Below are positions 46,236 through 64,000 of a stretch of 64,000 nucleotides of DNA, piece after piece. This stretch comes from Enterobacteriaceae endosymbiont of Donacia clavipes (GTDB lineage: Bacteria > Pseudomonadota > Gammaproteobacteria > Enterobacterales > Enterobacteriaceae). Each line of letters begins with the position of its first letter. The first letter of the stretch is position 1. The stretch is from contig NZ_CP046208.1 of the NCBI RefSeq assembly GCF_012570365.1, positions 129,472-193,471 on the forward strand, given 5' to 3'. Below the pieces are notes generated by a model, which worked only from the letters and a program-made list of their open reading frames with translations, searched no databases and was not told the DNA's origin. Position numbers and translations under genes: made by a program.

Positions 46236-47171
46236 AAAAAATATCCTTGAATTAAAAATTAATAAAAAATTATAAATTTAAATATTCCAGAAAAAATAAT
46301 ATTTTATCTTTAATAAAATTTTTATAAAAATTATTTTAATAAAATAAGAAAAAAATATATTTATATATATAATATTTATTATTTAAATCATTAATTATAA
46401 ATTTTTAGTTATATATTAATAAAAAAGATTTATAATAAATAATTATTTAATATTTTTATTTACTAAAATTTATAAAATAAATATTAAAAAAAACAAATAT
46501 TATAATTTTTTCAATTATGAAGTTTTAAATAAATTATTTATAAAACATTTAAATATAATTAATAAACTAATTGATAAAATAATTATTATTTGATTTAAAA
46601 AAAAGATAAGATTATTAATTAAATAAATATAAATTTTTTTTAAAATTGTAAATATTTATTATTTAATTTTATAAAAAAAAGAAAGAAAATTTTTTAAATA
46701 AATAATTTTAAAACATTGATTTAACTAAAAATTATTATTTTAAAATATATATATTTTAAATAATATACTTTACTTATAAAATGTTTTCTTTTAATAATTT
46801 AATTTTAAAAACTTATGTAATTTATTTATTTTATATGAAAAATAATTTTTATATTTAAAATATTATTTAGTTTAATAATAAAATTTTAGTTAGATTTAAT
46901 AATATTATGAAAAATATAAATATTTCTTAATATAAATAATATTAATAAATAAAAGTAAAACTTAAATATAAAAATATATATTAATAGTTTTTACAAAAAA
47001 AATTTTATTTATTTTTAAAAAAGGAAAAATAATAAATTATTTTAACTTAAGTTTAAATTATTATTTTATTTAGACTTAAAATAATTAAATTTAATTTAAA
47101 TTTTCAAAAAAAATATTAAAATAAAAATTAGAAAATTATTACTTTTAATATTATAAAATAAATATCTTATT
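46236..47171. other. 936-base gene desert between orn and epmA
   Basis: This is the longest stretch without a gene. In E. coli the interval holds rsgA, psd and mscM. I read both strands and found only short frames; none matched RsgA or phosphatidylserine decarboxylase convincingly. The best open stretch is around 46495-46600 on the plus strand, which reads YYNFFNYEVLNKLFIKHL and then stops. I cannot assign it. Composition is more than 90% A/T by eye. The region contains the orn promoter region. No DnaA boxes, tRNA, or rRNA-like sequence is visible. It looks like a deeply eroded remnant of the lost genes. Confidence 0.6.
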
Positions 47172-61323: not shown

Positions 61324-63192
61324 TTAGATATCTAATTTATTTTTATCTCTAACAGCACCTTTATCAGCACTAGTTACTAAATATGCATATGCTTTTAATG
61401 CAAAAGAAATTTTTCTTTTTCTTTTTAATAAAGGAGTATAGGCTAAATGTTTTCTCTGTTCTTCTATTTTTATCCTATCCATTAAAATATTATTTGATAC
61501 ATCTAGTATTATAGATCTATTTGGTATATTAATTTTAATAATATCTCCATTTTTTATTAATGCTATCATACCTTTATTTGCTGCTTCAGGAGAAATATGC
61601 CCTATAGATAATCCAGAAGTACCACCTGAAAATCTTCCATCAGTAATTAAAGCACAATTTTTATCTAATTTCATTGATTTTAAATAAGAAGTAGGATATA
61701 ACATTTCTTGCATTCCTGGACCCCCTTTTGGACCTTCATACCTTATTACAACTATTTCTCCTGGTAAAATTTTTTTATTTAAAATTGCATATATTGCTGA
61801 TTCTTGACTTTCATATACTTTAGCTTTTCCTGTAAAAATTAGTAATTTTTTATCTACACTAGCTGTTTTTACAACACATCCATTTTTAGCAAGATTACCA
61901 TATAAAACAGCTAATCCTCCATCTTTACTAAAAGCATATTTATATGAACGTATACAACCTTTTTTTCTATTATTATCTAAATTATTCCATATTTTATTTT
62001 GTGAAAAAGGTTTATTAGTTTTAATGTTACCTGGAGCAGAAGAAAAAAAATTTTTTATTTTTAAATCTTTATTAATCATTATGTCATATTTTTTTATTGT
62101 TTCTTTTATAGTTAATCCTAAAATATTTTTAACATTTTTATGTATTAATCCCATTCTATTTAATTCTCCTAAAATTCCTATAACTCCACCAGCTCTATGA
62201 AAATCTTCCATATAAAATTTATTTGTACTAGGAGAAATTTTACATAACCAAGGTATTTTTTTTGATAATCTATCAATTGTTTTAAGATTAAAATTTATAT
62301 TAGTTTCTTGAGCTAAAGCTAACATATGCAAAATTGTATTTGTAGAACCACCCATAGCAATATCTAACATAATTGAATTTTCGAAAGATTCTTGATTTGC
62401 AATATTTCTAGGTAAAAAATCAATATTATTATTTTCGTAATATTTTTTTGTAATTTCTACTATTTTATGTGCTGATTGTATACATAATTTTTTACGATTT
62501 TTATGTGTAGATAGTAAAGAACCATTACCTGGTAATGCTAAACCTAAAACTTCTACTATACAATTCATTGAATTAGCTGTAAACATTCCTGAACAAGAAC
62601 CACATGTTGGACATGCATTAAGTTCTATTTCTTTAATATAATTATCTGATTGTTTTAAATCAGCTGATTGAATCATAGCATCAACTAAATTAATTCTAGT
62701 AATTTTGTTTTTATTAATATTCACAATCTTTCCAGCTTCCATTGGTCCACCTGATATAAATACAGTAGGTATATTTAAACGCAAGCTAGCCATTAACATT
62801 CCTGGAGTAATTTTATCACAATTAGATATACAAATCATCGAATCTACACAATGAGCATTTATAACATATTCTATTGAATCAGCAATAAGTTCTCTAGAAG
62901 GTAAAGAATATAACATACCATTATGTCCCATAGCTATACCATCATCAATTGCTATTGTATTAAATTCTTTTGGTACGGCTCCTTTTTTTTTTATTTCCTT
63001 AGAAATTATTTTACTTAATTTTTGTAGGTGCATATGACCAGGAACAAATTCTGAAAAAGAATTAACTATAGCAATAATTGGTTTATTAAAATCTTCATTA
63101 TTCATACCTGTTGCTCTCCAAAGAGAGCGAGCTCCTGCCATATTACGACCTTTAGTTGTGATAAATGAACGATAAATAGGCATATTTCTCAC
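61324..63192 (-). CDS. ilvD: Dihydroxy-acid dehydratase IlvD
   Basis: IlvD dehydrates the dihydroxy acids to the 2-keto acids for valine, isoleucine and leucine, using an oxygen-sensitive Fe-S cluster. Landmarks are [15 protein letters not shown] near residue 16, [15 protein letters not shown] near residue 122 (cluster Cys), [18 protein letters not shown] near residue 194 (cluster Cys pair), [12 protein letters not shown], and the C-terminal [23 protein letters not shown]. Length is 622 (E. coli 616). It lies 22 bases after the ilvE remnant, as in the E. coli ilvGMEDA operon. Its products now appear to lack an in-house aminotransferase. Confidence 0.98.
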
Positions 63193-63213: not shown

Positions 63214-64000
63214 TTATAAATCTATATGATCTAACCAATTCCATTTATCTTTTATTTGTCCCGTAAATAAATATAAAAATTCTTCTTGTATTTTTTGTGT
63301 AATTTTACCTCTTTTACCATTATTTATTAATATATCATCTATACTACAAACAGGAATAATTTCAGCTGCTGTTCCTGTTAAAAATATTTCATCAGCTAAA
63401 TATAAAAATTCTCTTAATATTAGAGATTCTTTTATTTTTAAATTAATTTTTTTTGCTATTTTTAAAACTGAATCTCTTGTAATTCCTGGTAAAATAGATT
63501 AAGTTAATCGAGGAGTGAATAAAATATTATTTTTAATAATAAATATATTTTCTCCTGCCCTTCGGAAACAAAATCTAAACTATCTAGTGCTATTCCTTCA
63601 TCATATCCATTTCTTGTGCTTCACTACTTATTAATAATAAGGATAAATAATTACCACCTGCTTTTGCTAAACTAGGTATAGTATTAGGTTTAATTTTATT
63701 CCAAAAAGATATTATTGTTTTAATACCATTATTTTTTGCATTATCATCAAGATAATTTTTCCATAAAAAAGCACTAATCATTATATCTGCATAATAATTT
63801 TTAGGAGGATTAATTCCTAAACCTACATCTCCTATAAATATTAAAATTCTTATATAAGCTTCTTTTAATTTATTTATATTAATTATGATATGAACAGCAT
63901 TAATTATTTCTTGTATAGTAAATTTTAATGAAAAACGATAAATTTTAGCAGAATTATATAAACGATCAATATGATCTTGATGACGAAAAATAACAGAACC
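63214..64000 (-). pseudogene. ilvE: Branched-chain aminotransferase ilvE with three lesions (5' end outside window)
   Basis: IlvE transaminates the 2-keto acids to Val, Leu and Ile using PLP. The coding sequence is easily read from the right edge: GSVIFRHQDHIDRLYNSAK, GDVGLGINPPKNYYADI, and the PLP-lysine box AKAGGNYLSLL. It resumes after the lesions with ILPGITRDSVLKI, YLADEIFLTGTAAEI and the end WLDHIDL, with stop TAA at 63216-63214. Three faults interrupt it. One base is missing near 63609-63617, where EAQE breaks before GYDEGIALD. A second base is missing at about 63558-63560, between SEG and AGENIF. TAA at 63501-63499 replaces an expected Ser codon before SILPGI. Only a 63-codon open piece remains around the lysine. 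The gene may be a recent pseudogene or hold sequencing errors. Confidence 0.85.

Follow-up and report, generated by a model that had tools for sequence, protein, structure and literature searches.

The ilvE locus and its neighbours

We analysed a window of 64,000 nucleotides from the symbiont of the reed beetle Donacia clavipes; symbionts are named below by their hosts. The genome consists of 463,028 bases, with a chromosome of 457,274 bp and a plasmid of 5,754 bp (Reis et al. 2020, their Table 1, PMC7289800). The branched-chain genes were found in the order ilvG-ilvM-ilvE-ilvD, followed by ilvC, and the ATG of ilvE lies 141 bases past the window end. The first-pass annotation had described ilvE as broken by two single-base losses and a nonsense codon within about 118 bases of a gene that otherwise aligns end to end with IlvE, including the pyridoxal phosphate (PLP) lysine, and had called ilvC and ilvD intact. 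Alignment with 21 relatives bore out this description of ilvE, with about 118 bases from the first base loss to the TAA, and both ilvC and ilvD were open.

Features of the branched-chain locus and of the psd remnant (positions in the window; positions above 64000 lie beyond its end)
Feature	Position	Strand	Codon of ilvE	Basis or remark
psd (phosphatidylserine decarboxylase), heavily eroded remnant	46346-47052	+		
ilvC, ketol-acid reductoisomerase, intact, 491 aa	59609..61084	-		above NCBIfam cut-off
ilvD, dihydroxy-acid dehydratase, intact, 622 aa as listed	61324..63192	-		above NCBIfam cut-off
ilvE, probable pseudogene	63214-64141; window part 63214..64000	-		alignment with 21 relatives; only Aminotran_4 locus found
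Ordinary ilvE stop codon	63216-63214	-		
C-terminal ilvE remnant	63214..63498	-		other frame than gene start; 0 invariant positions changed after codon 215
Nonsense codon TAA	63501-63499	-	215	alignment with 21 relatives
Second single-base loss	63558..63559	-	195	alignment with 21 relatives
First single-base loss	63615..63618, about 63616/63617	-	176	placement alignment-dependent, within 1-2 bases
Retained lysine	63664-63662	-	160	
N-terminal ilvE open frame, 183 aa	63590..64000 in window	-		ATG to stop after first loss
ATG of ilvE	64141	-		contig position 193612

The two base losses do not cancel each other: frame 1 is open for only 183 aa, and the C-terminal part has to be read in a different frame. 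Because of the two losses and the TAA, the second half of IlvE is not covered by one continuous frame in D. clavipes; the D. dentata frame comprises 309 codons in all. The lysine retained at codon 160 is presumably the PLP-binding lysine of IlvE, and the D. dentata protein aligns at this residue with the solved chain 1i1k. The 183-aa ORF scored below both curated IlvE cut-offs (NF005146, 215.3 vs 279 bits; TIGR01122, 206.5 vs 245.55 bits), whereas D. dentata IlvE reached 415.2 and 414.8 bits, respectively. In a protein search with this ORF, the 15 matches listed (E up to 1e-70) included clusters of neither D. clavipes nor D. semicuprea, and the ORF did not form a protein cluster of its own among them. 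The D. versicolorea symbiont has an IlvE protein in a 90% cluster of four members, which may also contain that of D. semicuprea.

The genes upstream in the pathway were open. The products of ilvG, ilvM, ilvC and ilvD all passed their curated cut-offs, and only 1 of 246 invariant positions was changed in ilvC and 1 of 324 in ilvD. Furthermore, matches to PF00682 and PF00180, which we took as LeuA- and LeuB-type, were free of stops in 24/24 genomes. D. clavipes therefore has a Buchnera-type pattern, in which the aminotransferase is lost and ilvG, ilvM, ilvC, ilvD and the LeuA- and LeuB-type genes are kept. In D. dentata, a TGA flagged in ilvD falls just before the likely start of that gene.

The psd remnant is a separate feature of the window. 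PF02666 (psd) matched in 15 of the 24 genomes, and the 14 stop-free matches belonged to Donacia symbionts other than those of D. clavipes and D. fulgens; the psd of D. fulgens carries five in-frame TAA. There was no PF02666 match in D. clavipes, the five Plateumaris symbionts and the three Macroplea/Neohaemonia symbionts.

Constraint on ilvE in related symbionts

The comparison covered 24 of the 26 published genomes (16 Donacia, five Plateumaris, Macroplea mutica, M. appendiculata and Neohaemonia nigricornis), that is, all except D. semicuprea and D. versicolorea. ilvE was without stops in 21 of them, which served as the relatives for this gene, broken in D. clavipes, and present as old remnants in the two Macroplea. 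One of the 21, D. crassipes, has a run of 95 N inside ilvE, and its ilvG contains another of about that length; both genes are interrupted there for assembly reasons.

Going beyond the first-pass annotation, we found missense changes in D. clavipes ilvE, in addition to the stop, at 6 of 162 positions that are invariant across the 21 relatives (codons 33, 71, 143, 168, 190 and 212). In ilvG, ilvD and ilvC together, 3 of 862 invariant positions were changed (p 8e-4), the reference here being 20 relatives, with the two Macroplea and, because of the N run in its ilvG, D. crassipes left out. Outside codons 176-215 the difference persisted (4/139 in ilvE vs 3/862, p 0.009). The same ilvE count gave 0-2 changes in 19 of the 21 relatives (two in D. 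dentata), four in D. provostii and nine in the long-branch Neohaemonia. Since ilvE is free of stops in the latter two, changes at otherwise invariant positions do not by themselves prove the death of the gene.

The changes in ilvE were then assigned to the D. clavipes or D. dentata side by polarisation with D. sparganii and D. thalassina. D. clavipes had accumulated 16 nonsynonymous (stop included) and 12 synonymous changes, compared with 7 and 18, respectively, in D. dentata (p 0.03). The ratio of nonsynonymous changes between the two sides (D. clavipes/D. dentata) also set ilvE apart from ilvG, ilvD and ilvC (p 0.006), and of 50 control genes, picked as open in all four genomes, two had a ratio as high as that of ilvE. 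When the control genes were pooled (941:729), however, the D. clavipes counts for ilvE matched theirs (16:12, p 0.55), and thus the relaxation is visible only against the usual constraint on ilvE itself and against its neighbours. It also speaks against a dead gene that no invariant position was altered beyond codon 215.

The pairwise omega between D. clavipes and D. dentata was 0.17 for ilvE, compared with 0.17, 0.20 and 0.27 for ilvG, ilvD and ilvC, respectively. That the ilvE value is not raised suggests that the loss is young. From the ilvE codon counts, with the neutral expectation taken from fourfold sites, we roughly estimated that the gene has evolved free of constraint for 0.25 (95% interval 0.02-0.67) of the period since the D. 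clavipes lineage diverged from that of D. dentata.

Origin of the lesions and the last transamination step

There is a good case that D. clavipes ilvE is a real but young pseudogene. We give a probability of about 0.8 to the full reading, in which the gene is a true and recent pseudogene, the IlvE step has been lost, and a host branched-chain aminotransferase (BCAT) would complete the pathway. The two frameshifts and the stop would remove more than two fifths of the enzyme, so that the symbiont could not convert the keto acids of valine, leucine and isoleucine into these amino acids via IlvE any more. The keto acids would then be transaminated by the host enzyme or, less likely, by the aminotransferases that remain in the symbiont, and transamination elsewhere would have made the symbiont IlvE dispensable. 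Host transamination is our best inference for D. clavipes. Real lesions would mean an incomplete branched-chain synthesis in this symbiont, contrary to the published summary for Donacia.

The first-pass annotation had held that the symbiont, provided the lesions are genuine, makes the keto acids and cannot transaminate them, and had proposed a search of the genome for another branched-chain aminotransferase. Genome-wide, no class IV aminotransferase (Aminotran_4, PF01063) was found besides the ilvE locus, and class III (PF00202) had no match in 24/24 genomes. The matches to PF00155 and PF00266 in D. clavipes were SerC, a SufS, an IscS-like protein that did not reach the cut-offs for IscS, and a HisD-HisC protein, matched in its HisC half. 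The claim is thus supported as far as class IV enzymes are concerned and qualified by SerC and the HisC domain, both of which are open and above their curated cut-offs. That these two, and not the host, carry out the last step has a small but appreciable chance, and Reis et al. argue in their paper for broad substrate use of aminotransferases (PMC7289800). However, the names of SerC and HisC refer to other reactions, and both match Pfam families different from that of IlvE.

HisD and HisC are fused in D. clavipes in one frame of 800 aa on the minus strand, near 114.4-116.8 kb of the chromosome, with both halves above the NCBIfam cut-offs. In 24/24 genomes the ORF that contains the PF00155 match is 802-869 aa long, the HisD half having been checked in D. 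clavipes only. hisC is given as missing in Reis et al. 2020 (PMC7289800).

The lesions could also be real but polymorphic, being carried by only some symbiont lineages or individuals of D. clavipes. The methods reported give one to four females as the DNA source for each species (PMC7289800), and the interval for the unconstrained time extends to very short values. Nevertheless, the gene has already acquired three lesions as well as several missense changes, and we consider such polymorphism rather improbable.

A local fault of the assembly or consensus, in which the true ilvE is open and the lesions stem from a faulty join or contig end, is unlikely as well. The lesions are packed closely, the ilvE omega is not elevated, the D. 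crassipes assembly has its N runs in the same operon, and contigs that did not join by themselves were merged by reference alignment in this study, as its assembly procedure describes (PMC7289800). However, three sites placed at random in the 927 bases have a probability of about 0.044 of lying in a stretch of 118 bases, so that the clustering alone says little. A fault limited to this stretch should not affect ilvE elsewhere, and the missense changes at invariant codons 33, 71, 143 and 168 outside the lesion stretch therefore count against it. In addition, there was no N within the 73.5 kb examined around ilvE, and few of the neighbouring genes were broken. Counted at a floor of 50 aa, short or missing ORFs numbered 3/74 in D. 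clavipes, 8/83 in D. dentata and 18/93 in each of D. sparganii and D. thalassina; because most of these cases were below 100 aa, and some were shadow ORFs or lay at a stretch end, we redid the count with non-overlapping ORFs of at least 100 aa away from the stretch ends. Two of 51 conserved genes were then broken in D. clavipes, namely ilvE and psd, the latter far more heavily eroded and a much older case, compared with 0/50 in D. dentata, 0/49 in D. sparganii and one borderline case among 50 in D. thalassina. Of the two origins that the first-pass annotation had left side by side, recent inactivation or a local assembly fault, recent inactivation is hence favoured by the missense changes outside the lesion zone and by the scarcity of broken neighbours.

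In endosymbionts, transcript slippage and recoding are known where a frameshift falls in a poly(A) run, and the end-to-end alignment with IlvE would suit a product that is still made in this way, but this is highly improbable here, as neither base loss sits in a run of at least four equal bases or in poly(A)/poly(T), the TAA would also need bypass, and the missense pattern indicates lost constraint.

Probable independent losses and comparison with known systems

The reading of D. clavipes ilvE as a young pseudogene raises its relation to the dead gene of Macroplea. In a tree of IlvG, IlvC and IlvD, D. clavipes grouped with D. dentata and Macroplea with Neohaemonia, each with a support of 100; two further nodes were weak (38 and 52), and neither touches the placement of D. 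clavipes or Macroplea. As ilvE is stop-free in Neohaemonia and in the 15 other Donacia genomes compared, the D. clavipes and Macroplea losses arose separately, barring the recovery of a dead gene. Judged from these sequences, the D. clavipes loss is a second loss, on a branch separate from Macroplea, and appears younger. Read in the D. dentata frame, the two Macroplea remnants are interrupted by 19 and 20 stops, and their pairwise omega is 0.73, vs 0.15, 0.13 and 0.18 for ilvG, ilvD and ilvC of the same pair. The upstream genes are thus under purifying selection in Macroplea despite the dead ilvE, indicating that the upstream pathway stays useful without a symbiont IlvE.

D. clavipes would therefore add a second, younger ilvE loss to a symbiosis with one published loss. 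Since close relatives carry ilvE in an open, a freshly broken or a long-dead state, the order of host BCAT use and gene death becomes approachable. It is possible, though we hold it only tentatively, that ilvE was lost repeatedly because the host enzyme was already active, with takeover preceding loss; D. clavipes, Macroplea and the species with an open ilvE would then form a graded series.

In Buchnera, the loss of ilvE is complete and old, unlike that in the D. clavipes symbiont. The likeness lies in the outcome, since Buchnera lacks ilvE and BCAT of the aphid host is raised in the bacteriocytes, as is in part described in PMC8032781 and otherwise familiar from this system. Within the reed beetles, loss of ilvE with retention of the upstream branched-chain genes has been reported for the symbionts of the two Macroplea (PMC7289800; EMBO Rep 2025, PMC12508126), and host transamination of the keto acids was proposed earlier for them (PMC7289800). 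The main text of Reis et al. 2020 (PMC7289800), in the parts consulted, gives the ilvE loss for Macroplea only and does not name D. clavipes as lacking the gene. The Macroplea symbionts resemble that of D. clavipes in genus and in having lost the gene while keeping those upstream, but their loss lies on a separate branch and is older. In the stink bug symbiont SoNv, ilvE is likewise caught in decay, there as part of a convergent loss, and host BCAT was proposed to finish the pathway (PMC8032781, Sci Rep 2021). SoNv, as described there, lacks ilvG and ilvM and keeps IlvIH, whereas the ilvG and ilvM products of D. clavipes are open and above cut-off. As far as these accounts go, the loss of ilvE in Macroplea and its decay in SoNv were thus already known, and the probable fresh loss in the D. 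clavipes symbiont is a further instance of the same kind.
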